Made by a program: the position numbers and the translations under genes. 50,739 nt of DNA from Synergistaceae bacterium (lineage in GTDB: Bacteria > Synergistota > Synergistia > Synergistales > 79-D21): assembly GCA_012517195.1 (NCBI GenBank), contig JAAYVK010000066.1:1-50739 (forward strand), written 5' to 3'. Numbering within the stretch: the first letter of the stretch is position 1; each line of letters begins with the position of its first letter. Of this stretch, positions 2,397-14,423 are shown piece by piece. The notes under the pieces are model-generated. The model ran no database searches, was not told where the DNA came from, and worked only from the letters and a program-made list of their open reading frames with translations.

Positions 2397-3587
2397 TCAG
2401 CCTTGCTTCCCAGGCTTTTTCTTCAGCTCCTGGATCGCTTTCTGAAGCTGGATATCCTTCCTATGGTCCTTGTTCGGCTCTCCTTCAACCGTCAAATCCG
2501 GCTTCAGTCCCACATGATCGATGACCAGTCCTGAGGGAGTGTAGTAGCGTGCGATCGTGATGAACATCGCCGAGCCGTCCGAAAGATGGAACAGGGTCTG
2601 AACGGATCCTTTGCCAAAGGTCTTCTTGCCGACGATTTTTGCCCGTTTCAGGTCCTTCAGGGCTCCTGAAACGATCTCGGATGCGCTTGCGCTTCCTTCG
2701 TTGACCAATACCACCACCGGCAGGCGGGTTTGGGTCCCCCTGGTCGCGTAAATCACTTCGTTCGCCCGCTCGAAACGGCCTTTCATGCCGACGATGACTC
2801 CTTCGTCGACGAACATATCGACAACATCGGTTGCTGCGTTCAGCAGTCCCCCGGGGTTGTTTCGCAAATCGAGAATGATTCCCTTGGCTTTCATCCCGTT
2901 GGCCTGCGCCAGGGCCTTTCTCATCTCTTCAGCGGTCTTCTCGTTAAAAAAGCTGAGCCGAATGTAGACTAGCCCATCCTCCAGCTTTTCAAGCTTGACT
3001 GTTTTCAGGGCGATATTCTCCCTTTTCAGATCAAATTTCAGAAGCCGCTCTACCTTTTCGCGGCGGATCCAGATGGTCACGCTGGTGCCGGCAGGGCCTC
3101 TCAGGGCCTTTACGACCCGGTCCTGGTCCCAACCAAGAATCACTTCTTCCCCGATTTTGACGATCTCATCGTTCGGCTTGATCCCGGCCCTCTCGGCGGG
3201 AGTTCCTTCAATCGGGCTGACCACAAGCGTTCTTCCATCTTTCTGGGCGATATAGATGCCAAGGCCCCCGTATTCGCCCTGGACTTCGATCTCCTCTTCC
3301 TTAAGCTGGGCAGGGTCTAGGAACCTCGTGTAAGGATCCCCCCAGGCCTGCAGGATCCCTCGAACCGCACCATAAAGCAGTTTTTTCTCCTCGACCGGCT
3401 TGTCTCCGTCGACGTGGTAGGTTTCCAGGAGCGAACGGGTCTGCTTCATCAGCCAGAGGGCCTGAGCACTGAAGGGAATTACGCTTGACAGATCGGTCCC
3501 GCTCTCTGCCCTGGCTGTAACCCACACACCGGTCAAGAGGGTCCCGATCAAAATGCCTGCAATCAAATCTCGTGCCCGTTTCCACAT
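2397..3587 (-). CDS. ctpA: S41 family carboxy-terminal processing protease
   Basis: This is an exported serine protease of the CtpA/Prc family that trims C-termini of envelope proteins. It has an N-terminal signal or anchor segment (about residues 8-25, ending near TARAES), a PDZ domain (about 95-180, with GYGGLGIYI and VSPIEGTPAERAGI), then the S41 domain. The catalytic Ser lies in EGSASASEIVSGAL and the Lys in VGKKTFGKGSVQT, so the Ser-Lys dyad is intact. The 396-aa length is normal. It lies 26 bp after the M23 peptidase gene; in other bacteria CtpA-type proteases control the amount of M23 hydrolases, so a functional link is plausible but inferred. Confidence 0.95.
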   Translation of the reverse strand: MWKRARDLIAGILIGTLLTGVWVTARAESGTDLSSVIPFSAQALWLMKQTRSLLETYHVDGDKPVEEKKLLYGAVRGILQAWGDPYTRFLDPAQLKEEEIEVQGEYGGLGIYIAQKDGRTLVVSPIEGTPAERAGIKPNDEIVKIGEEVILGWDQDRVVKALRGPAGTSVTIWIRREKVERLLKFDLKRENIALKTVKLEKLEDGLVYIRLSFFNEKTAEEMRKALAQANGMKAKGIILDLRNNPGGLLNAATDVVDMFVDEGVIVGMKGRFERANEVIYATRGTQTRLPVVVLVNEGSASASEIVSGALKDLKRAKIVGKKTFGKGSVQTLFHLSDGSAMFITIARYYTPSGLVIDHVGLKPDLTVEGEPNKDHRKDIQLQKAIQELKKKPGKQG

Positions 3588-3613: not shown

Positions 3614-4807
3614 CTATCGGGCGCGAAGGTACGCCCTCGGGTTTTTTGCAGTCCCGTTGATTCTTACTTCGAAATGGAGGTGACTTCCGGTTGAAATCCC
3701 TGTGCTGCCTACTCCCCCAATAATCTGTCCTGCAGCGACCGCCTGCCCCCCTCTTACATCCATCCGTGAAAGATGTCCGTAGATTGTCAGCAAGTCCCCT
3801 CCATGATCGATGATGACCGTCTGACCGTAGCCCCTCATCCACCCGGCATAAAGAACCTGGCCGGCCGCCACGGAGATGACGGGGGTGCCGATCGGAGCCG
3901 CGATGTCTATTCCCGTGTGCATCATCTTTGTGTTGAATTCAGGGTGCACCCGCATTCCAAACTCGCTGTTCACGGTTCCGACCGTGGGCCACGGAAGAGA
4001 TCCTCCCCTGTAGGAAGGAATGACCTGCCCTGGTGTCCGTTTCGCCAACCGTCTTTTTTGCTCCAGCAGGCTTCGCACCTTGCTTTCGAGTTCGCGCTGA
4101 GCCTTCAGCAACTCCTGGACTGCGGCGGCATGCAGCTCCTTTTCCCTTTTCACCTGGCTGAGGTATCGGCTGCTTTCCTCTACCGCCTTTCGATGTTCGT
4201 TTCTTTCCAGTTCGAGTTCCCGTTTCTGTTCCGAAAGGCGTTGGGTCTGAATGCCGAGATCCCGCCTTGATTGCTCCAGCCGCCTGATTCGGTCCATGTA
4301 TTTCCCATAGATTTCCCGGTCCTGGTCCGCAATTCTGGATAAAAGATACGAACTGACGATCGCCTCGTTGATCGTGCTTGATGAAAAGAAAAGATTGAGC
4401 TCGGCAACCCCGCCGTAGCGATAGATCGCGTTCATCCTGGCTGCCAAAGCGCCTTTCAATTCTTCAATCTGACCTTCCGTGTAGGCAATCTCTTTGGTCA
4501 GCTCCGCAATCCGGATCTCAACCCGTTTCTGCTTTAGCTGCATTACGTTGATGCGTTGGCCTGTCAAAGCCACCTTTTCGTTGTATTCCTGGAGTTTTGC
4601 CAGCACACTCTTTTCCTTGACCCTGGCTTCATCCAGTTTTTTGCGGTGCATCGTCACCTGTCCCTGCAGCTCGGAAAGGCGAGCTTCTTCTTTTCGGATC
4701 TGTTCTTCCAGGTCCGAAGCGGCGGATGCAGCAAACGTAAGAAACCCCGCCGGAATGAGGGAAAAGGTGACGATCAGAAGGAGGGCCCGAATCACTCGTA
4801 TGCTCAT
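3614..4807 (-). CDS. EnvC/CwlO-like M23 peptidase with N-terminal coiled coils
   Basis: The protein has a signal peptide (about residues 1-30, ending near AASAAS), two long coiled-coil blocks (about 30-110 and 160-260, rich in E, R, Q and L heptads) and a C-terminal LytM/M23 domain. Unlike E. coli EnvC, whose LytM domain is degenerate, the zinc ligands look intact: HTGID (first His and Asp) and HLHFE (last His), with YGHLS between them. It could therefore cut peptide cross-links itself rather than only activate amidases. It lies 13 bp after ftsX, the known partner arrangement in which FtsEX gates such hydrolases through the coiled coil. The start has GGGAG 7 nt upstream. Confidence 0.93.
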   Translation of the reverse strand: MSIRVIRALLLIVTFSLIPAGFLTFAASAASDLEEQIRKEEARLSELQGQVTMHRKKLDEARVKEKSVLAKLQEYNEKVALTGQRINVMQLKQKRVEIRIAELTKEIAYTEGQIEELKGALAARMNAIYRYGGVAELNLFFSSSTINEAIVSSYLLSRIADQDREIYGKYMDRIRRLEQSRRDLGIQTQRLSEQKRELELERNEHRKAVEESSRYLSQVKREKELHAAAVQELLKAQRELESKVRSLLEQKRRLAKRTPGQVIPSYRGGSLPWPTVGTVNSEFGMRVHPEFNTKMMHTGIDIAAPIGTPVISVAAGQVLYAGWMRGYGQTVIIDHGGDLLTIYGHLSRMDVRGGQAVAAGQIIGGVGSTGISTGSHLHFEVRINGTAKNPRAYLRAR

Positions 4808-4820
4808 GGTTTGGCTCCCG

Positions 4821-5705
4821 TCAGGAAGGCTTCATGGCTTCGGAAATATGCCTCTCGACAGCGATCCAGCTGCAGAGCCAGCTCAGGGAAACTCCGCCCC
4901 CAATCAGAATGAGAGCCAGCTTCAGGTAAAGTTGCGGGCTGTCGACCAGCTGGATAAAGGGAAGCGTATTCTGAACGGAATTCACGAAGGATTTGTACAG
5001 GAACCCAAGAACCGCGGAAGCGGCAAGGGTTCCCGTAAGCCCCCAGAAGAGACCGAGAAGGACAAAGGGCAGGGCTACGAAGCCAGGCATGGCTCCAACG
5101 AGGAGCATCACTTCGATTTCCTGCTTTCTGGAGTAAATGGCAACCCGGATCGTGTTGTAGAGCACAAGAGCTCCGGCAAGCCCTGCAAACACCAGCAGGA
5201 AAAGCGAAAAAATCTCGGCAAACCGGGATAGGCGGGCAAGCTTCTCGGCAACCTTCCCGGCGTACACGACATCCTCCACTTCGGGCATCGAGACGAGTTC
5301 GCGGGCGATCCCCGACACGCTCGAAGCCTTGTCCACCCGGACTTCCAGGCTCGCCGGCAAGGGATTCTCCCCCAGGAGCGTAACCGCGGCGCTCTGGTTC
5401 CCCAGGCGGGCTTTCAGGAGCTCCAGTGCCTGTTCGGGGGAAATCGGGCGTACACCTCTCACATGCGGCATCTTTTCCACCTTTTTCGCGAGTCCCTCAA
5501 GGTCCGCCTTGGGCTGAAGATAGGCCTGGACGACCAGCTCCCCCTCCACCACGGAGATGACGTGCCGCGTGTTCAGAGCCAGGAGAAAACTGCATCCAAC
5601 AAAGAAGAAAACGACGAGCACCGTCAAAAACGTCAGCCCGCTTATGCCCGGACTCCGGCGGATCAGCCTGACGGTGTCTCGAATGGCAAAACTAAAGCTC
5701 CTCAT
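4821..5705 (-). CDS. ftsX: Cell division ABC transporter permease-like protein FtsX
   Basis: FtsX has a short cytoplasmic N-terminus, a first membrane segment (GLTFLTVLVVFFFVGCSFLL), a large extracytoplasmic domain of about 120 residues and three further membrane segments near the C-terminus. This is the normal 4-TM FtsX layout. It forms a complex with FtsE and transmits ATP-driven motion to a periplasmic murein hydrolase. I chose the ATG at 5705, which lies inside the last codons of ftsE (14-bp overlap) and gives a normal 294-aa protein. The frame is open further upstream, but that stretch is coding for ftsE. The ribosome site is weak, so translation is probably coupled. Confidence 0.94.
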   Translation of the reverse strand: MRSFSFAIRDTVRLIRRSPGISGLTFLTVLVVFFFVGCSFLLALNTRHVISVVEGELVVQAYLQPKADLEGLAKKVEKMPHVRGVRPISPEQALELLKARLGNQSAAVTLLGENPLPASLEVRVDKASSVSGIARELVSMPEVEDVVYAGKVAEKLARLSRFAEIFSLFLLVFAGLAGALVLYNTIRVAIYSRKQEIEVMLLVGAMPGFVALPFVLLGLFWGLTGTLAASAVLGFLYKSFVNSVQNTLPFIQLVDSPQLYLKLALILIGGGVSLSWLCSWIAVERHISEAMKPS

Positions 5706-6387
5706 CGAAGTCGTACCTGCCCCTCTCCTGATCACGAACGATCCTTCCCATCTTGAGTTCAACAACCCTTTGCCTGTATGCATCAACAAGGTACCGGTTG
5801 TGCGTCGCCATGATCAGCGTGGTTCCCGAAGCGTTGATCGAAAGCAAAACCTGCATGATTTCCCCGGCCGTCTGGGGATCAAGATTGCCTGTCGGTTCAT
5901 CGCAGAGCAGCAGGAGGGGGTCGTTCGCAATCGCACGGGCGATGGATACCCGCTGCTGCTCCCCGCCCGAAAGTTCCCGGGGATAGAGGAACCTCCTCCG
6001 CCACATCCCCACGCAGTCAAGGACCTCCCCCGCACGGTCGAGCGCTTCTTTCCGGGGGGCCCCGACTGCCTCGAGAACAAAGGCGACGTTTTCGAGGGCA
6101 GTACGGTCTTCCAGCAGGCGGTAATCCTGAAAGACCATCCCGATGGCTCTCCGATACTGGCAAACCTTTGTCCGCCTTAGCTTCCGCAGGTTGTACTCTC
6201 CGACGAGAACCTGCCCGCGCGACGGCAGGAGTTCCCGGTTCAAAATCCTCAACAGGGTCGTCTTTCCGGAGCCGGTAGGACCCACGAGATACACGAAATC
6301 TCCCTTGGGAACGCTAAGAAAGACGTCCTCAAGGGCAGTGATATCCTCTCCGAATGTTTTCGTGACGCCCGACATCCGTATTTCCAA
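5692..6387 (-). CDS. ftsE: Cell division ATP-binding protein FtsE
   Basis: This is an ABC ATPase of 231 aa with Walker A GPTGSGKTT, a Q-loop in MVFQDYRLL, signature LSGGEQQR, Walker B LLLLCDEPTGNLD and an H-loop MATHNRY. It pairs with FtsX at the division site. The start is a TTG with GGAGG 7 nt upstream (GGAGG-CGTTAGA-TTG). Only 1 bp separates it from the end of the transketolase-like C-half gene, so these genes are translated from one message. The C-terminus overlaps the start of ftsX. Confidence 0.96.
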   Translation of the reverse strand: MEIRMSGVTKTFGEDITALEDVFLSVPKGDFVYLVGPTGSGKTTLLRILNRELLPSRGQVLVGEYNLRKLRRTKVCQYRRAIGMVFQDYRLLEDRTALENVAFVLEAVGAPRKEALDRAGEVLDCVGMWRRRFLYPRELSGGEQQRVSIARAIANDPLLLLCDEPTGNLDPQTAGEIMQVLLSINASGTTLIMATHNRYLVDAYRQRVVELKMGRIVRDQERGRYDFDEEL

Positions 6388-6388
6388 T

Positions 6389-7345
6389 CTAACGCCTCCT
6401 CATCGTCCAGGCCTGCGATGCGGCGCTCAGGATTTCCTTGAAAGACAAGCCGTAGTACTCCAGAAGCTCTTCGGCTCCCCCGCTCTGGCCGAAACGGTCC
6501 TGTACGGAAACGAACTTTACCGGCACGGGTGAGGACTGGCTAACCAGTTCCGCGATCGCGCCCCCAAGGCCCCCTGCAGCGGCATGCTCTTCCGCAACGA
6601 CACAGCATCCCGTTCTTCTGACGGAGGCCGTGATCGCCTGCGCGGGGAGAGGCTTGACCGAATAGCAGTCGATCACCTCCGCTTCGATCCCCTGCTGGGA
6701 GAGGATCGTCGATGCCTTGAGAGCCTCGTGCACCATCGTACCACAGGCGCAGAGGGTGACTCCGTCGCCTTCCCGCAGGATCGAGGCGCCTCCCGGCTGG
6801 CAAGCGGCACTGTCATGCCTTTGAAGAACGGGCAGCGGAGTCTTGCAAAGACGGAGAAAAAACGGCCCGCCTGCCCGGACGGCCTCCCTGAAAAGCTGTC
6901 CTGCCGAAGGGCTGTCCGAGGGCACCAGGACAGAAACGTTGGGGAGAACCCTCAAGAAAGCAAGATCTTCTAGAACCTGGGACAGGGTCCCATCCTCTCC
7001 TCCTGTAAAGCCTGCGCGAGCCAGGAGAAAACCAACCGGCAGAGAAGGAATCGCGATCGCCGACCGAATCGCGTCGTAGGCCTGGAACACCAGCAGAGGG
7101 GAGAGTGAATGGACCAGGACCCTCCGTCCCGATAGCGCCAGGCCCGCGGCCAGAAGCACCGTTTCCTTCGCCGATAGGGCTGGCGCAAGAAATTGATCCG
7201 GATGATCCTGCCCAAAAGCCTCCAGCGAAACATCCCTTTCGTCTCCCGCCGCCAGGAGGAAAAGGGAAGAATCCAGCACCGCCTGTTCCCGGATGGCTTC
7301 AAGAACCGTTTCTTCCATGCCGGGCTGCACTGTTTCGTCGTTCAT
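6389..7345 (-). CDS. Transketolase-like C-terminal subunit, active site degenerate
   Basis: The 318-aa protein matches the C-terminal half of split transketolases: a Pyr domain (about residues 8-170) and a transketolase C-terminal domain (about 185-310, with LREGDGVTLCACGTM). The fold motifs AAGLALSG, GGEDGTLSQ and RVLPNVSVLVPSD are clear. The usual (G)(I/V)AEQN motif with the Glu that activates thiamine diphosphate reads ALSAKET here, so the expected Glu is replaced. The normal HAG...GEDG.(T/S)HQ reads RAGFTGGEDGTLSQ, and the cofactor-ring region TFA.F...RA.DQIR reads HSLSPLLVFQAYDAIR. Family membership is clear, but activity as a transketolase is doubtful. It is coupled to the N-half by a 4-bp ATGA overlap. 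Confidence 0.88.
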   Translation of the reverse strand: MNDETVQPGMEETVLEAIREQAVLDSSLFLLAAGDERDVSLEAFGQDHPDQFLAPALSAKETVLLAAGLALSGRRVLVHSLSPLLVFQAYDAIRSAIAIPSLPVGFLLARAGFTGGEDGTLSQVLEDLAFLRVLPNVSVLVPSDSPSAGQLFREAVRAGGPFFLRLCKTPLPVLQRHDSAACQPGGASILREGDGVTLCACGTMVHEALKASTILSQQGIEAEVIDCYSVKPLPAQAITASVRRTGCCVVAEEHAAAGGLGGAIAELVSQSSPVPVKFVSVQDRFGQSGGAEELLEYYGLSFKEILSAASQAWTMRRR

Positions 7346-8205
7346 TCTTCCATCTCCTCCGCGAGACGTTTCCCTTCTTTCTCAAGCTCAAGCAGCGCAT
7401 TCTCCACCCGCTCCCGGTTCGGAGCTATCGGGGCCTTCATGTTTCTGTTCTCCAGGGAAGAGATTCCTTTTCCCCAGCGGGTTTTCGCGATGACCGCCAA
7501 GGGGTAGTCCTTCTCCCGGCCACACAGGGAAAAGGCCTCCGCCAGTGACTCAGCGCTGTGCCCGTCACAAACGATGGTTTTCCAGCCAAAGGCTTCAAAG
7601 CGCTGCGCGGCCGTTTTCGGAAGACGAATGTCGCCCTTTCCGTCTCCGGGTTCCCTGTCGTGAACCTCCGCAATTGCCGCCAGGTTGCCGAGACGAAGGG
7701 CCGAAGCCGCCTGGACGGACTCCCAGATCGAGCCTTCACGAAGCTCATCGTCCCCGATGAAGCAGAAGACCCTGGCTGGGGAATGGTCCGCGCGGCAGGC
7801 CGCCGCGACTCCGTTCGCAATCCCCAGGGCGAGCCCCGGGCCGATTCCGGGAGCCTCGACCCCCGGCGTTCTCCTGGCATCAAGGGTTCCTTGCAGCATC
7901 GCTCCCAGCTTCCGGTAGCTCCAAAGCTCTTCCCTGTCGAAGAAGCCCTTCCTCGCGAGGACAGCATAGAGCGCGGGGGCCGCGTCTGATTTTCCCAGGA
8001 TCAGCCGGTCCCGTTCGGGCCACTTGGGATCCTCCGGGTTCAAAGATAGACTGTAAAAATACAGAACAGTCAAGATATCGACCACCGACAGAGAAAACCC
8101 GAGATTGGACGCCCGGCTCAAGCCGATCATCCGCACAACGTCCTTGCGGACTTCAAGGGCCGTCTTCTTCAATTCCAGGATCCGGTTTTGATCCATCCTC
8201 ATCAT
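7342..8205 (-). CDS. Transketolase-like N-terminal subunit, active site degenerate
   Basis: The 287-aa protein corresponds to the N-terminal half of split transketolases. Fold motifs are well kept: SVVDILTVLYF, DPKWPERDRLIL, APALYAVLARKG, RKLGAMLQG and FEAFGWKTIVCDGH. Yet residues that normally bind thiamine diphosphate, Mg2+ or sugar phosphate differ: GHPGG is SNLGF, SKGHA is GKSDA, LQGHP is LQGTL, STGSLGQGLS is APGIGPGLAL, GDGE is GDDE, and the metal-binding Asn stretch (VDYN type) is AEVHD. A pseudoenzyme or changed chemistry is likely. The start is one of three close ATGs (8205, 8202, 8196) after GGGGAG; 8205 overlaps the csaB stop as ATGA. The longer frame upstream is csaB shadow. Confidence 0.88.
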   Translation of the reverse strand: MMRMDQNRILELKKTALEVRKDVVRMIGLSRASNLGFSLSVVDILTVLYFYSLSLNPEDPKWPERDRLILGKSDAAPALYAVLARKGFFDREELWSYRKLGAMLQGTLDARRTPGVEAPGIGPGLALGIANGVAAACRADHSPARVFCFIGDDELREGSIWESVQAASALRLGNLAAIAEVHDREPGDGKGDIRLPKTAAQRFEAFGWKTIVCDGHSAESLAEAFSLCGREKDYPLAVIAKTRWGKGISSLENRNMKAPIAPNRERVENALLELEKEGKRLAEEMEE

Positions 8206-9221
8206 CTCTCCCCGAGGCTTTGGTAGGTTTCCTTGAAAATCCTGCCGACCTCTTCTCGCAGGCCGGCGATTCTCAAAAGAGAATCTTCGGCTGGAACCGT
8301 GAACGGCATTCCCGGGTTCCAGGTCGGCACTCCCAGGATTTCGGCAAATCCAAGCACTTTCGGATCGTAGGGAACCGCCAGCAGAGGGATCCCTGCCATC
8401 GCTGACAGAATGCAGAAATGCAGTCGCATCCCCACGGCTTTCCTGCACCCTTCCGGAAAGACGAGGGAATCCCGCTTTCTCGGATCCCATCGGTCAATCC
8501 CTTCAAATTCCACCAGCCCGCGGCGCGCAAGGTCCTCCATTGTTCTTGTATCCTCTTCCGCAAGGGAGATCCCCCGGATTGACAGGCCAAGGGCTCTTGC
8601 ATACTCTTGTGCGTTTTCCGCGAGCCGCTCGGGGAGGCCGTTCTTCCACGGCCGGATGTTCAGGATCATTCGTGTGCCTCCCGCTTCCCCGGCGACCGGG
8701 AAAGGCTCCAGGCCGAACACCAGATCCGGAGACAGGAACGCGTCCAAACCCCAGTTGTTCAGTTCCTCGAGGGAAAAACGGTCCCTTACTCCTCTTTTCA
8801 CGCAGAGCGCGAGGGCATCCCTTGCGAGTACCCTGGCAAGCTTCCCGTTCAGGGGTCCGACGGATTGGCCGAAGCACCACGGCAGGCAGTCCACAAGTTT
8901 TGCCATCCTCACGAGACTCCAATAATAAACCGGCGACCGAAAGCTGGTGGAATCCTGGAAAAGGCCGCCACCCCCCAGAAGTAGCGTCCGGCTTTCCCTG
9001 AGAGCCGTAAAGACGGCTCTCAGGTTCCACCGGTTCACGGCAGACGTTCCCAGAAAACGCTCCGTTTCTGCGGCATCATTGGAAAGGACGATGATCCTCG
9101 GCCTTTGAACGCCGCATTGCTCAAGAAGCCGCACGGCAGACTGGGCGAGGAGCTCATCTCCCAGGTTTCCGAAACCATAATAGCCACAGAGAGCCACTTC
9201 GAAACGGCGCTCTACGTGCAA
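8202..9221 (-). CDS. csaB: Polysaccharide pyruvyl transferase CsaB
   Basis: CsaB adds pyruvate ketals to a cell-wall-linked polymer, which SLH-domain proteins then bind. The N-terminal motif GYYGFGNLGDELL and the GGGGLFQDSTS loop are diagnostic; LPWCFGQSVGPL and the C-terminal VGMRLHFCILSAMAGIPLLA match the family (339 aa, normal). I chose the TTG at 9221, which has GGAGG 8 nt upstream; a GTG at 9236 would overlap that site. It overlaps the DUF5693 gene by 10 bp and the transketolase-like N-half by 4 bp. The presence of csaB predicts SLH-anchored surface or outer-membrane proteins in this organism. Confidence 0.94.
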   Translation of the reverse strand: MHVERRFEVALCGYYGFGNLGDELLAQSAVRLLEQCGVQRPRIIVLSNDAAETERFLGTSAVNRWNLRAVFTALRESRTLLLGGGGLFQDSTSFRSPVYYWSLVRMAKLVDCLPWCFGQSVGPLNGKLARVLARDALALCVKRGVRDRFSLEELNNWGLDAFLSPDLVFGLEPFPVAGEAGGTRMILNIRPWKNGLPERLAENAQEYARALGLSIRGISLAEEDTRTMEDLARRGLVEFEGIDRWDPRKRDSLVFPEGCRKAVGMRLHFCILSAMAGIPLLAVPYDPKVLGFAEILGVPTWNPGMPFTVPAEDSLLRIAGLREEVGRIFKETYQSLGER

Positions 9222-11125
9222 TGAACCGACCTCCACTTAGCCACCAGCGGAAACACCGCAAACCTCAGCAGTCCGACCAGGACCAATCCCATGGCAATCC
9301 CCGCCCACCAGCCGTTAAACACCCGAAAAAGGATAAACGGCAGACGCGTGTGAAAATGACAAAAGCTATTTACGGCTGAGGCAAAACCGATCGATGCCGC
9401 GACACGCGGCAGGATCCAGGCATGCCGCCCCCAGTTGGCGCGGGCCATGGCGTACCAGAGGATCAAAGCGGGGTAACCGATAAACAGTTCCTTTGTCCTT
9501 GGACGGGCGACTAGCGCCCTTTCCAGCAAATCCCGCAGAGTTCTCTCCCAGCCGCCCACGAAGGCCGTATTGTCGCTTCGAAGCGCCAAAACTCCAGCTG
9601 CCAGGATAATCAGGCAAACCAGGAAGAACTCCAGCCAAATCATCGGCCGGGCGAGCAATTTCCTGGCGCTTTCCGGGGAAATCCCGGACCGGAAATCGTG
9701 GGCAAGAACCAAAAGCGGCGGCAGGAGCAAGGTCAGTTTTACTCCCGAAAAGGGCTGGATTCGGAGCATCGTCAGCGGGGTACTGAAAAAGGCCGCCAGG
9801 GCGAGCCCTCCCGTGATTGTCAGCAAGAGCGCTGCAAACAGGCCGAAAGCGGGTTTTCGATATTCCCCGAGGGTCCAGAGACAGACTTCCGCCGCCAGTA
9901 AGGCGCTGCCGAAAGCTCCGCAGAGCTTCGCCGCCAGCGGCAGATGAAGCATCAGGAACGCCAGGGCGAAGCCCCCCGCAAGGATCAGGAGGACTTCAGG
10001 CCACCCTGCAGGCTCTTCCATTTTCCCCAGGAATCTCAGGGTCAACCGCAAACAGAGCAAGGCCAGAGTCAGCCCAAAAGCAGCGGCTCCTGCCAGGCTC
10101 CTCGGCCAGTCCCCGATCGGTTCGGGCCAGCCGCTTTGATACCCCCTCCGTTCCAGGTCTGTCCGGATCCGTCCCATATCGGACAAGACTGCCGCATACC
10201 GGCCCCCCGATTCGATTTCGTAAGAACGGATCAGCAGCAGCGGGACCGATCGTTCCACGAACGCCCGAATCATCCTTTCGACGATCGCGTCCCTGGAAAT
10301 ACGCTTCACGATGATCTCATCGGTTGTTACACTGTGGAGAGGGATCAAAGCCGGGTAGGAAAACCGGTTCAGGCTTTCCGCCCCGTATTGTCGGTTGAAT
10401 TCAGCCTGAGCCAGGAAAAGCCCCTTTTCCTGGATCCATTTCCCCAACCGCTCGATATCCGGCGCACCCGGGACAAAAAGCCCCTGGGGCAGGATCCCGC
10501 GGATTTCGGGCCTCCGGGACACCAGGGTCTCCAGGGAGGCAACGACACGATCTCCTCCCGCACCGGGGCAAGGAGCCGGCCTGTACAGGACCGGAAGTGA
10601 TCCTCTTCGGGCCAGTTCAAGCCCTTCAAAGTCCGGGACCACCCCCGCTTTTTCCAGCTCATACGCGGAACGAGGCAGGAGAACATATTCCATGCGGGAC
10701 GCCGAAAGCACCCTAAGCCCTGGAAATTTTGCCTCCAGGTAAGCCAGGGCTTCCCCGGACCAGGGGCGTTCCCTCGGGAAGCCAATGAGCGCAAGATCTC
10801 CGGGAGCAAGCGGGAAAAGGGTTCTGGCCTCGGGGATTTTCGCAATCGGCCCGAAAAGGAAACCCGATTGTCCCTCAATCAGCTCGAGACCGGTCAGTTC
10901 GTTGACCGAGACCCCTTCAAGCTTTTGCTCTTTCATTTCCTTAAGCAGGGACTCCACCGGCCGCCCTTCCTGCCTTGACAGACTCTGGATTTCCGTGCTT
11001 TCGATGAGCATGGCGAAAGTACGGTGGGACAGTTCGGTTTTCCATCTCGGAGCCAGCCCCAGGATGGAAAGGGAAAAGACCGCTACCAGGAAGAAAAGGT
11101 GCACGGAATTTCGGCTGAATCTCAT
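9212..11125 (-). CDS. DUF5693 family polytopic membrane protein
   Basis: The protein is 637 aa. A single N-terminal membrane segment (about residues 7-24) is followed by an extracytoplasmic region of about 330 residues, then eight or more membrane segments to the C-terminus. The stretch ERALVARPRTKELFIGYPAL near residue 550 is the kind of conserved element seen in DUF5693 proteins. The function is not known to me. From memory such genes often sit beside csaB, as here, so a part in making or moving the pyruvylated wall polymer is a reasonable inference. The ATG at 11125 overlaps the maf stop as ATGA; the open frame further upstream is maf shadow. Confidence 0.82.
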   Translation of the reverse strand: MRFSRNSVHLFFLVAVFSLSILGLAPRWKTELSHRTFAMLIESTEIQSLSRQEGRPVESLLKEMKEQKLEGVSVNELTGLELIEGQSGFLFGPIAKIPEARTLFPLAPGDLALIGFPRERPWSGEALAYLEAKFPGLRVLSASRMEYVLLPRSAYELEKAGVVPDFEGLELARRGSLPVLYRPAPCPGAGGDRVVASLETLVSRRPEIRGILPQGLFVPGAPDIERLGKWIQEKGLFLAQAEFNRQYGAESLNRFSYPALIPLHSVTTDEIIVKRISRDAIVERMIRAFVERSVPLLLIRSYEIESGGRYAAVLSDMGRIRTDLERRGYQSGWPEPIGDWPRSLAGAAAFGLTLALLCLRLTLRFLGKMEEPAGWPEVLLILAGGFALAFLMLHLPLAAKLCGAFGSALLAAEVCLWTLGEYRKPAFGLFAALLLTITGGLALAAFFSTPLTMLRIQPFSGVKLTLLLPPLLVLAHDFRSGISPESARKLLARPMIWLEFFLVCLIILAAGVLALRSDNTAFVGGWERTLRDLLERALVARPRTKELFIGYPALILWYAMARANWGRHAWILPRVAASIGFASAVNSFCHFHTRLPFILFRVFNGWWAGIAMGLVLVGLLRFAVFPLVAKWRSVHCT

Positions 11126-11712
11126 TGATGAACCTCCCATTGACGGGCAAGGGGGACCCCGAATCGTTCCAGCATAAGGCTCAGCCTGTGCAGCGGAAGC
11201 CCCACGACATTGAAATAGCATCCGGAAATGCCTGAAACGAGCAGGGCTCCACGGCCCTGGATCGCATAGGCCCCTGCCTTGTCCCTGCCTTCTCCCGTTG
11301 TCACGTATGCCTCAATCTCCTCCTCAGAAAGAGGGCGGAAGGAAACGCGAGTCACCTCGATATCGTCAAGGCAGTCCCCCCTTCTCCAGAGGGCGATTCC
11401 CGTTACCACCTCATGCGTGCTCCCCGAAAGAGTGCGGATCATCTCGGCGGCTTCCGCATCATCTTTGGGTTTCCCAAGGATTTTCCCCTCGTGCACAACG
11501 ATCGTGTCAGCACCGATTACGAAACTCTCCGGATGCATTTGTGAAACGGCCCTGGCCTTCTCGATCGCTAGTCTTCTGCAGGTTTTTTCCGGGAGTTCTC
11601 CTGGAAAATGGCGCTCGACAACTTTGGGGTCGACAATCCGGAATTTCCAGCCCAAAGCGGAGAGCAGGTTCTCCCTTCGGGGGCTTTTTGAAGCGAGGAC
11701 AAAAGAATTCAT
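11122..11712 (-). CDS. maf: Maf-family nucleotide pyrophosphatase
   Basis: Maf proteins hydrolyse non-canonical or modified nucleoside triphosphates to monophosphates. The signature ASKSPRRENLL is at the N-terminus, followed by SFVIGADTIVVHEGKILGKP with the catalytic Asp, then THEVVTG and DKAGAYAIQGRGALLV. Length 196 aa is normal. It lies 20 bp after the DUF4321 gene and overlaps the DUF5693 gene by 4 bp, inside the envelope run. Confidence 0.95.
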   Translation of the reverse strand: MNSFVLASKSPRRENLLSALGWKFRIVDPKVVERHFPGELPEKTCRRLAIEKARAVSQMHPESFVIGADTIVVHEGKILGKPKDDAEAAEMIRTLSGSTHEVVTGIALWRRGDCLDDIEVTRVSFRPLSEEEIEAYVTTGEGRDKAGAYAIQGRGALLVSGISGCYFNVVGLPLHRLSLMLERFGVPLARQWEVHQ

Positions 11713-11983: not shown

Positions 11984-12799
11984 TCAACCCCTCCCCCACA
12001 ATCCGGCAAGCACCGCCAGAAGGCCAAGCCCCGCCGTATACCAGGCAAAAAGGTTCCAGCGACCGCTGATGACAAACCTTCTCAGGATCGACAGGGCGAA
12101 AAGCCCTGACAGAAAAGCCGCCCCAGCGCCGATCCACCAGCCATGCGGCAAACCGAGGACAAAATCCTGCAGGCCTCCCGCATCCAGCGCTTCCAGAAGG
12201 ATCGCTCCCGCGACCGACGGAAGAGACATCAAGAAGGAAAAATCAAAAGCCGCCTCCGGTGAAAGTCCGAGGAACAAACCTGAACAGATCGTTGATCCGG
12301 AACGCGAGATGCCCGGAAAGACCGCCAACCCCTGGACAAAACCAACCCCCAGGCCGATGGGCAGGTTTACGGCTTTTTCTTTCGATCGCCCGGCCATTCT
12401 ACCGGCGAGAAAAAGGATTCCGGCGTTGACAAGTAGCAGGGCACCGACCAGGGGGAGCGATCCCATTGCCGACTCAACGGCACCCTTCAGCGGATACCCG
12501 ACGCATGCCGTCACGGCCGTTCCGCCTAGAACCGACCATCCGGTTTTCCAGCCCGCAGAGCGCTTTCCCGGCGGAAGACGCCAGCCTTCCAGCCAATCCC
12601 GCAACACTCTCAGCCAGACTCTCCTGAAAAACAGCAGAGTTGCCAAAAGTGTTGCTCCATGAAGGACAAGGTCATATGCGAAAGGGGGATTTTCAAATCC
12701 CATCAGGTTCTGAAAAATCGCCAGGTGCCCGGAGCTGCTGACTGGCAGGAACTCAGTCAGCCCCTGCAGGATTCCCAGCAGCGGCAGCTTTGGCGTCAT
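11984..12799 (-). CDS. uppP: Undecaprenyl-diphosphate phosphatase
   Basis: UppP (BacA) recycles undecaprenyl diphosphate to the monophosphate carrier for wall polymers in the membrane. Family motifs are GILQGLTEFLPVSSSGHLAI at the N-terminus and PGISRSGSTI with its catalytic Ser-Arg in the second half; the rest is multi-spanning and hydrophobic. The start at 12799 (MTPKLP) overlaps the end of the Na/Pi gene by 47 bp and gives 271 aa, normal for the family. Confidence 0.96.
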   Translation of the reverse strand: MTPKLPLLGILQGLTEFLPVSSSGHLAIFQNLMGFENPPFAYDLVLHGATLLATLLFFRRVWLRVLRDWLEGWRLPPGKRSAGWKTGWSVLGGTAVTACVGYPLKGAVESAMGSLPLVGALLLVNAGILFLAGRMAGRSKEKAVNLPIGLGVGFVQGLAVFPGISRSGSTICSGLFLGLSPEAAFDFSFLMSLPSVAGAILLEALDAGGLQDFVLGLPHGWWIGAGAAFLSGLFALSILRRFVISGRWNLFAWYTAGLGLLAVLAGLWGRG

Positions 12800-14423
12800 G
12801 GGTCCTTTTCCCCTCCATATCCATCTTGATGACATCCAGGACCATCAGGGCAAGGTTGTTCCCGTGGTCGGCGATTCGCTCCAGGTTGCTCAGAATATCG
12901 ATAAAGACCACTCCCGCGCTGGGCTGGCATGCCCCGGTGTTCAGCCGCTCAATGTGTTTTTTCCGTAATTCTTTTTCCAGGGCGTCGACACGGTCTTCGA
13001 GGACCAGGACTTCCCTCGCGGCTTCCCCGTCCTCGTTCAGGATGGATTCAATCGCAAGATGAAAGGCGAGACGGGCATTCGTGAACATTTCTTCGAATTC
13101 GGCCATCGCCTTCTCGGAAAATACAAGGTGATTTTCCTGTGAATATTCAAAAAGCTCCGTGAGGTTCGTGGCGTGGTCTCCGACCCGTTCGATATCGGAG
13201 GCGCCGTTTACATAAGCCCCAAGGGTCAACGAGAGGTCCTCGGAAAGACTGGCCTGCCCGACCTCGGCGGCATAGCGCGCGATTCCGTGGGTCAGCTGGT
13301 TGACCAGTTTCTCCGTCTGGAAAACCTCTTCCGCCTTTTTGGGATCCCTCTCGACAAAAGCCGCGTGAACGTTCTGGAGCATTTCCTCGGCCAAAAATCC
13401 AAGGCGAACCAGCTCCTGCCTGACTGCATGAACGGCAGCAGCCGGAGTTGCCGAAATCAGCCTGCGGTCGAGAAACCGGGGCCCCATGTCGAGAACCGCC
13501 ACTTTTCCGGGAATGATCTTCTGGACCATCGTTACGAACGGACGGGAGAACGGCAGGAAGATCAGGGTGTTTGCCACGTTGAAAAGCGTGTGGGAGTTCG
13601 CAAGCTGACGGGGAATCGAGCTCGATGTGACCTCGACCACCCCTTTGAACAGCGGAAAGGCCGCCATGAAAATGACGACCCCGAACAAGTTGAAGAGGAC
13701 ATGGCAGGCAGCCGCCTGTTTGGCCCCCCGGTTTGCACCGATGGAGGCCAGCACCGCCGTGATGGTGGTCCCTATGTTGTCCCCAAGGATAATGGGAATC
13801 CCGGCGTCCAGCCCCAAAAGCCCCTGGGAAGCCATCGCGATGACCAGGCCGACCGTTGCCGCGCTGGACTGGACAAGAAGGGTCATTCCCGTCCCGGCTA
13901 GCACTCCCAGGAGCGGATGGTTCGAAAAGGCGACAAAGATATCTTTCCGATCCCGAAGAAACGCCATCGACCCTTCCATCGTTTTCATTCCGAGGAAAAG
14001 CAGGCCGAAACCTACGAGTCCGTTCCCGAGGATCTTCTGCCGCTTGGTCCGCCCAAACATCGACAAGAGGACGCCGACACCCACGAACGGCAGAGCAAAA
14101 TCGGAAAATTTGAACGCGATCAGCTGAGCGGTAACCGTGGTTCCGATGTTCGCACCCATGATGACGCCGAAAGCCTGATATAGCGACATCAGTCCCGCGT
14201 GAACAAAGCTGACGGTCATGACGGTGCAGGCGCTGCTGCTTTGCAGGAGTGTCGTCACCACGATGCCGACACCGATTCCTCTTACCGGGGTCTTCGTCAC
14301 GGTTGAAAAAAGCCTTCTTAGCTTTTCTCCTGATAAATCCTGGAGGGTTTCGCTCATCAGTTTGATCCCGAAGAGGAATAGCCCGACTCCACCAAGCATT
14401 TGCAGGATAGAAGTCAGTGGCAA
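12753..14423 (-). CDS. Na/Pi cotransporter family protein with PhoU-like C-terminus
   Basis: The first 310 residues form two homologous NptA-type membrane repeats, each with a QSSSA motif (TTLLQSSSACTV and TLLVQSSAATVG) and a GANIGTT or GDNIGTT motif. The last 220 residues are helical and PhoU-like (YVNGASDIERVGDHATNL, SNLERIADHGNNLALM). The protein probably imports phosphate with sodium, with the PhoU-like tail sensing or controlling it. The start is a TTG with AAGGAG about 10 nt upstream; the protein is 556 aa. The setting fits a sodium-based economy, but no pho genes are nearby. Confidence 0.93.
   Translation of the reverse strand: MPLTSILQMLGGVGLFLFGIKLMSETLQDLSGEKLRRLFSTVTKTPVRGIGVGIVVTTLLQSSSACTVMTVSFVHAGLMSLYQAFGVIMGANIGTTVTAQLIAFKFSDFALPFVGVGVLLSMFGRTKRQKILGNGLVGFGLLFLGMKTMEGSMAFLRDRKDIFVAFSNHPLLGVLAGTGMTLLVQSSAATVGLVIAMASQGLLGLDAGIPIILGDNIGTTITAVLASIGANRGAKQAAACHVLFNLFGVVIFMAAFPLFKGVVEVTSSSIPRQLANSHTLFNVANTLIFLPFSRPFVTMVQKIIPGKVAVLDMGPRFLDRRLISATPAAAVHAVRQELVRLGFLAEEMLQNVHAAFVERDPKKAEEVFQTEKLVNQLTHGIARYAAEVGQASLSEDLSLTLGAYVNGASDIERVGDHATNLTELFEYSQENHLVFSEKAMAEFEEMFTNARLAFHLAIESILNEDGEAAREVLVLEDRVDALEKELRKKHIERLNTGACQPSAGVVFIDILSNLERIADHGNNLALMVLDVIKMDMEGKRTHDAKAAAAGNPAGAD

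Follow-up and report, generated by a model that had tools for sequence, protein, structure and literature searches.

How should a gene pair be read that encodes the two halves of a transketolase in intact frames, sits among cell-division genes, and has lost most of the residues on which transketolase catalysis depends? Such a pair (here called tktN and tktC) lies between csaB and ftsE in the window, by which we mean the entire analysed stretch of 50,739 nucleotides from a Synergistaceae bacterium (contig JAAYVK010000066.1). Here, we report a computational analysis of what this pair has lost, when the losses occurred, and what selection has retained.

The two genes had been described as full-length and coupled, and both are intact minus-strand open reading frames that overlap each other by 4 bp (Table 1). 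Their products match Pfam models well above the cut-off (Transketolase_N 99.5 bits, Transket_pyr 61.7, and Transketolase_C 104.5), and their closest solved structures are 6yak (E 2e-59) and 6yaj (E 5e-57), which correspond to the separate chains of ChTK, the active split transketolase from Carboxydothermus hydrogenoformans. By descent and by its PP, Pyr, and TKC fold carried on two chains, the window pair belongs with the split transketolases (EC 2.2.1.1); the ThDP/metal site and the substrate His/Arg set of these enzymes are not preserved in it. Downstream, the EnvC-like M23 gene adjoins ftsX throughout the phylum. At the other end of the operon, in the window's genus, maf and a Na/Pi cotransporter gene flank a UppP-like gene (11984–12835, minus strand), which the loci fetched from other families did not show at this position.

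Table 1. Features of the tktN-tktC locus, in window coordinates.
Feature	Position	Strand	Remark
ctpA-like C-terminal processing peptidase	2397..3587	minus	
EnvC-like coiled coil + peptidase M23 protein	3614..4807	minus	recognised from sequence
ftsX	4821..5720	minus	
ftsE	5692..6387	minus	TTG start, 1 nt past the tktC stop codon
tktC, Pyr + C-terminal domain half	6389..7345	minus	318 aa
C-terminal (TKC) domain of tktC, residues 187–318	6392..6787	minus	most constrained part of the pair
C-terminal tail W-T-M-R-R-R	6392..6409	minus	near-invariant in Synergistales (WxxRRR)
AGGAGG, Shine-Dalgarno-like site of ftsE within the last tktC codons	6395..6400	minus	
RTGCC motif (R244–C248)	6602..6616	minus	near-invariant in Synergistales, absent from f11
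tktN, PP (diphosphate-binding) half of the split transketolase-like pair	7342..8205	minus	287 aa
AEVHD replacing the LDYNG stretch	7660..7674	minus	metal ligand Asn178 -> His
GDDE replacing GDGE	7744..7755	minus	metal ligand Asp148 kept, Gly149 lost
SNLGF replacing GHPGG	8095..8109	minus	full motif gone in every Synergistales pair, intact in f11
csaB-like polysaccharide pyruvyl transferase, conserved neighbour	8202..9236	minus	4-bp overlap with tktN
DUF5693-type membrane protein, csaB neighbour in the operon	9212..11221	minus	

The substrate and catalytic positions used below are given in E. coli transketolase (EcTK) numbering. The residues holding TPP and metal in the Carboxydothermus split transketolase are published (PMC7661550), and the 15 positions scored comprise these TPP/Ca contacts and seven substrate or catalytic positions. 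The window pair keeps 4 of the 15 key side chains: K68, D148, E150, and the Asp of GEDG. Within the ThDP/metal set (K68, H70, D148, E150, N178, K240, catalytic E55, and F80), K68, D148, and E150 are kept (3/8), and none of the six equivalents of EcTK H26, H100, H261, H461, H473, and R520 remains. Of the metal ligands, the window pair is missing one, and neither the catalytic Glu nor any of the six scored His is left. Each motif change listed in the original prediction (SNLGF, GKSDA, LQGTL, PGIGPG, GDDE, AEVHD, ALSAKET, and LSQ) is real, and its statement that almost every binding residue has changed is right in substance and slightly strong in wording. Assembly or sequencing error is ruled out as the cause, because a close relative (G004, 85–88% identical) carries the identical set of changes.

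AlphaFold models, built from orthologue alignments for each half separately, predict that both halves still fold as transketolase. The tktC model (mean pLDDT 88.5) finds its best PDB match in 6yaj (TM 0.88–0.93), and the tktN model (mean pLDDT 86.8) in 6yak (TM 0.87). Values of pLDDT <50 occur at tktN residues 106–113 and 186–193, which adjoin the sites where substrate and metal formerly bound; the loop of residues 186–193 directly follows AEVHD.

The location of the pair is shared with relatives. Among 188 Synergistota genomes searched (about 120 loci fetched), the gene order maf-DUF5693-csaB-tktN-tktC-ftsE-ftsX-envC-ctpA-(deacetylase)-purA occurs in about 100 genomes and 11 of 12 families. 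Wherever the pair and ftsE were recovered on a single contig, linkage to ftsEX is stable, and the pair remains beside ftsE even though csaB has moved in G035, G038, G092, and G096. In the deep sister family f11, the csaB-tktN-tktC-ftsE-ftsX core is present and its pair is canonical (15/15 residues), and in many relatives outside the phylum, Clostridia and Gastranaerophilales among them, a pair with intact motifs stands directly before ftsE-ftsX, the intact sites outside Synergistales resting on about a dozen loci. The placement had been taken as a sign of a new role; this is not supported, because canonical pairs in f11 and ftsE-adjacent ones in Clostridia are placed alike, which makes the placement older than the catalytic loss.

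In a tree of both halves (quick search, SH-aLRT support), the Synergistales pairs form one clade (support 100) that is sister to f11 (99), and the two nest together inside the canonical split transketolases of Clostridia, Gastranaerophilales, and others. When losses are mapped on a tree of the neighbouring operon proteins, parsimony places one loss each of K240 and of the EcTK-His261 equivalent in the Synergistales ancestor. Independent losses number about 25 for D148, about 20 for N178, and 11 for E55 under Dollo parsimony, and 14, 16, and 11, respectively, under Fitch parsimony. The tree, the adjacency in foreign genomes, and the parsimony counts therefore establish that the operon and its transketolase are old, and that catalysis was lost repeatedly and only in Synergistales.

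The pair itself can also disappear. It is cleanly absent, with csaB-ftsE-ftsX adjacent, from G143, G167, G138/G139, G115–G118, G099, and G125 (L303–L311), which points to several independent losses. In G145 (L302, about 4834–5300), a decaying remnant with tktN and Pyr scraps lies between csaB and ftsE and retains an intact VVQVWAMRRR end ahead of ftsE. A subclade of family f5 (L117, L132–L136, L150, L158, and L312–L321) shows rearrangements of its own: tandem EnvC-like (M23) genes follow ftsX, ftsX is more diverged, and csaB is often relocated.

A second, canonical transketolase is present in the window's genome, which favours a pseudoenzyme and rules out the pair as the only transketolase there. 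This fused enzyme has been split by assembly, its first 161 residues ending contig C87 and the remaining 534 beginning contig C92; the two contig ends share an overlapping stretch, and the motifs of the enzyme are intact. A fused canonical transketolase occurs in 145 of the 188 genomes (99 of the 116 with good assemblies), with every family from f1 to f10 represented. Some genera without it have other split transketolases with intact motifs, and f5 g18–g20 lack the fused enzyme and still keep the pair. No fused transketolase was found in f11 genomes at E 1e-100, and a Pfam search of three of them (G006–G008) returned no clear transketolase other than the operon pair. The fused transketolase made the loss of catalysis in the operon copy affordable. 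As a separate observation, the split pair is also the only strong transketolase match in Syntrophomonadaceae L281 and L285 and Gastranaerophilales L291. C. hydrogenoformans has been stated to be unique among bacteria in having a split transketolase only (PMC7661550); as far as sequence matches can tell, f11, L281, L285, and L291 go against this statement.

Is the eroded pair under selection? We obtained simple counting estimates of dN/dS from 31 pairs of related genomes, with medians taken over 20–25 comparisons at dS <1.5. The medians for the Synergistales pair are 0.138 (PP), 0.105 (Pyr), and 0.048 (C-terminal domain), with 0.033 for ftsE and 0.189 for csaB as neighbours. Comparing the window genome (G000) with G004 gives 0.19, 0.21, and 0.086 in the same order of domains, and fully dead lineages range from about 0.05 to 0.25. 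These estimates, far below 1, indicate purifying selection, which sets the intact pairs apart from the G145 remnant. Pseudoenzymes are a known kind of protein, and the pair has their hallmarks, with catalytic residues lost in a kept predicted fold and purifying selection retained. The original prediction of a pseudoenzyme selected for another role is supported on both counts, and we regard a dead enzyme with a selected, non-catalytic function as very probable.

Constraint has also moved within the protein: in the pair, the C-terminal domain of tktC is now most conserved, and the fused enzyme of these genomes shows the opposite pattern. In the 27 genomes with both proteins, mean between-genera identity of the PP, Pyr, and C-terminal domains is 0.49, 0.45, and 0.66 in the pair vs 0.65, 0.78, and 0.47 in the fused enzyme, and the ratio of C-domain to catalytic-domain identity is higher in the pair in 332 of 332 (non-independent) genus comparisons. 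The dN/dS order is likewise reversed in the intact f11 pairs (PP 0.06–0.07; Pyr 0.04, from one unsaturated pair; C-domain 0.12–0.14). All new near-invariant tktC residues (Q218, R244, C247, C248, Y297, W313, and R316–R318) lie in the C-domain.

Two elements of this domain stand out. The RTGCC motif is constrained as protein, because its codons vary freely. Its use as an exclusive marker of dead copies is weakened by L283, from a contig labelled Methanomethylophilaceae archaeon, where a canonical split transketolase with intact motifs and no adjacent ftsE has RTGCC in its C-domain; convergence, transfer, or a mis-binned contig could account for this. The C-domain also contains five highly conserved cysteines (C199, C201, C227, C247, and C248; 6602–6751, minus strand), which, in a predicted cytoplasmic protein of anaerobes, may have a metal or redox role. 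The second element is the tail. Its AGGAGG is present in 83 of 105 Synergistales loci and is presumably the Shine-Dalgarno sequence of ftsE, making this a doubly used sequence; a purely protein-level constraint on the C-terminal RRR is rejected, part of the conservation being due to ftsE. In several f5 genomes, ftsE begins 40–90 nt downstream and the tail still reads W-T-x-R-R-R, written in CGN codons. Because RRR persists with non-Shine-Dalgarno codons where ftsE has moved, the tail is selected as protein too.

This double use of the tail lends itself to a different reading, namely that the pair is a slowly decaying relic, kept only since its disruption would cut translation of ftsE from a ribosome-binding site inside tktC. 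The frequency of the site, the repeated complete deletions of the pair, and the tail end left standing in the G145 remnant all fit such a relic. We nevertheless consider it unlikely, given that frames are intact in about 100 genomes, that dN/dS stays low in fully dead lineages and is lower in the C-half than in csaB, and that near-invariant C-domain residues lie far from the Shine-Dalgarno site with codon choice free. The persistence of RRR in other codons speaks against it as well, and the clean deletions show that ftsE can do without the pair.

Erosion of the active site differs in degree across the order, with Synergistales copies keeping between 0 and 13 of the 15 key residues and pairs such as those of G128 and G137 down to 0–2. 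The copies of f2, f5 g8/g12, and f10 g56/g57 keep 12–13; in these, both metal ligands and the catalytic Glu are still in place, as are most His, and, judging by these residues, such lineages (f2 and parts of f5 and f10) might still bind ThDP. At the other end, both metal ligands are missing in 35 genomes, 13 of which also lack the catalytic Glu. The GHPGG signature, K240, and the EcTK-His261 equivalent are absent from all of the approximately 100 Synergistales copies. The well-preserved lineages, together with csaB, a sugar-polymer enzyme that adjoins the pair in most genomes, would speak for the pair being still an enzyme, holding ThDP in a rearranged site and catalysing a different reaction, perhaps towards an envelope sugar precursor. 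Such an enzyme is rather unlikely in view of the residues lost from the window pair, from the 35 genomes, and, for K240 and His261, from the entire order; no alternative pocket is conserved across lineages, and the least confident stretches of the N-half model flank the former active site.

The same pocket might instead act as a non-catalytic binding site for a sugar phosphate or nucleotide, whose presence the pair would signal to the envelope machinery. A metabolite sensor would be in keeping with the binding of sugar phosphates by the ancestral site, the predicted survival of the transketolase fold in the two halves, and a PP half that remains under constraint (dN/dS about 0.14). On the other side, the phosphate-binding Arg and most pocket His have been lost many times, and the residues of the pocket vary between families, with no shared new pocket signature found. 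We therefore hold a sensor to be quite unlikely. The new ligand that had been suggested for the pair is disfavoured for the same reason: a shared ligand is improbable because the former pocket residues vary by family with nothing new in common there, and the conserved novelties of tktC are all in the C-domain. Finally, regulation of the fused canonical transketolase through mixed oligomers, for which the coexistence of pair and fused enzyme in most Synergistales genomes might speak, is very improbable, as identity to the fused enzyme is only about 28–31% (N-half) and 22–27% (C-half) and f5 g18–g20 keep the pair without it.

The explanation that we prefer, and consider on balance probable as a whole, is that of a pseudoenzyme whose C-domain serves for docking, with the pair acting as a scaffold or regulator and FtsE as the best candidate partner. 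Its ancestor would have been an ordinary split transketolase in a csaB-tktN-tktC-ftsE-ftsX-envC-ctpA operon and the sole transketolase of the cell. With a separate fused transketolase supplying the enzymatic function in Synergistales, the operon copy would then have lost catalysis, through two losses in the ancestor and others independently in many lineages. The folded two-chain protein, which we infer to persist as a heterotetramer, would have been retained for a working surface formed by the tktC C-domain, the RTGCC strand, and the basic WxxRRR tail. This surface probably docks on a cytoplasmic partner, a role that suits a conserved C-domain with a basic tail, and the protein would act non-catalytically.

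FtsE is favoured as that partner because the pair stays by ftsE, because translation of ftsE apparently starts within tktC, and because the adjacency is also found outside the phylum; the pair might hence take part in FtsEX-EnvC control of peptidoglycan hydrolysis. The adjacency, being older than the catalytic loss, may be historical. Of the two processes originally suggested, division or wall synthesis, division is the one we lean towards, since the pair stays with ftsE when csaB has moved. FtsEX and CsaB persist where the pair was deleted, so the pair is at most an accessory. The identity of FtsE to that of f2 is 0.58 without the pair vs 0.63 with it, a comparison that is confounded by clade and gives no clear sign that FtsE changed its rate once the pair was lost. 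That the pair is an FtsEX accessory is a tentative proposal, and the more specific version—a former metabolic enzyme turned dedicated FtsEX subunit order-wide, acting via the transketolase C-terminal domain—is doubtful.

In the open-access literature, we found no paper linking transketolase with ftsE or csaB loci and no description of a bacterial pseudo-transketolase. To our knowledge, an order-wide split-transketolase pseudoenzyme in a division operon, with the intact sister form still in place, is undescribed. The locus offers a series running from the intact f11 pair through partly eroded Acetomicrobium-type copies to copies with 0/15 key residues, and because this graded series sits at one locus, the steps from enzyme to pseudoenzyme are readable and testable. 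The shift of constraint hints at a C-domain task that active transketolases encoded in this operon may already perform without its having been noticed. Should FtsE be the partner, central carbon metabolism would be linked to envelope remodelling. There is also a practical consequence: family models will tend to label these genes transketolase and thereby to misstate the pentose phosphate pathway of Synergistales.

Among the closest known systems are the canonical pairs of f11, Syntrophomonadaceae, Peptococcaceae, Bacillota AS04akNAM_80, and Gastranaerophilales, which share common descent with the Synergistales pair and have ftsE-ftsX as neighbours, often with envC-ctpA and in some cases csaB. 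The f11 and non-Synergistota canonical pairs differ in that their inspected catalytic motifs are intact. ChTK (6yak/6yaj; PMC7661550) resembles the pair in its two-gene layout, domain order, and fold (TM 0.87–0.93), and the pair is nested with it in the tree; identity in the fold alignments is 38% and 31–34%. Unlike the window pair, ChTK is active and binds TPP/Ca via residues mostly lost in the former, and it lacks the RTGCC motif and WxxRRR tail of the Synergistales pair. The human TKTL1 and TKTL2 are transketolase-like proteins of disputed activity, which one account (PMC6334435) argues to be bona fide transketolases. They are similar in being transketolase paralogues beside a canonical enzyme with debated catalysis, and different in being single-chain and mammalian, with no order-wide dispersed ligand loss and no division-gene context. 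For the proposed function, the nearest analogy is with SweC and SweD of B. subtilis, described as FtsEX cofactors (PMC6705773): as lineage-restricted accessories in FtsEX control of hydrolases, they illustrate how the pair may work, a likeness for which we claim no sequence relationship.
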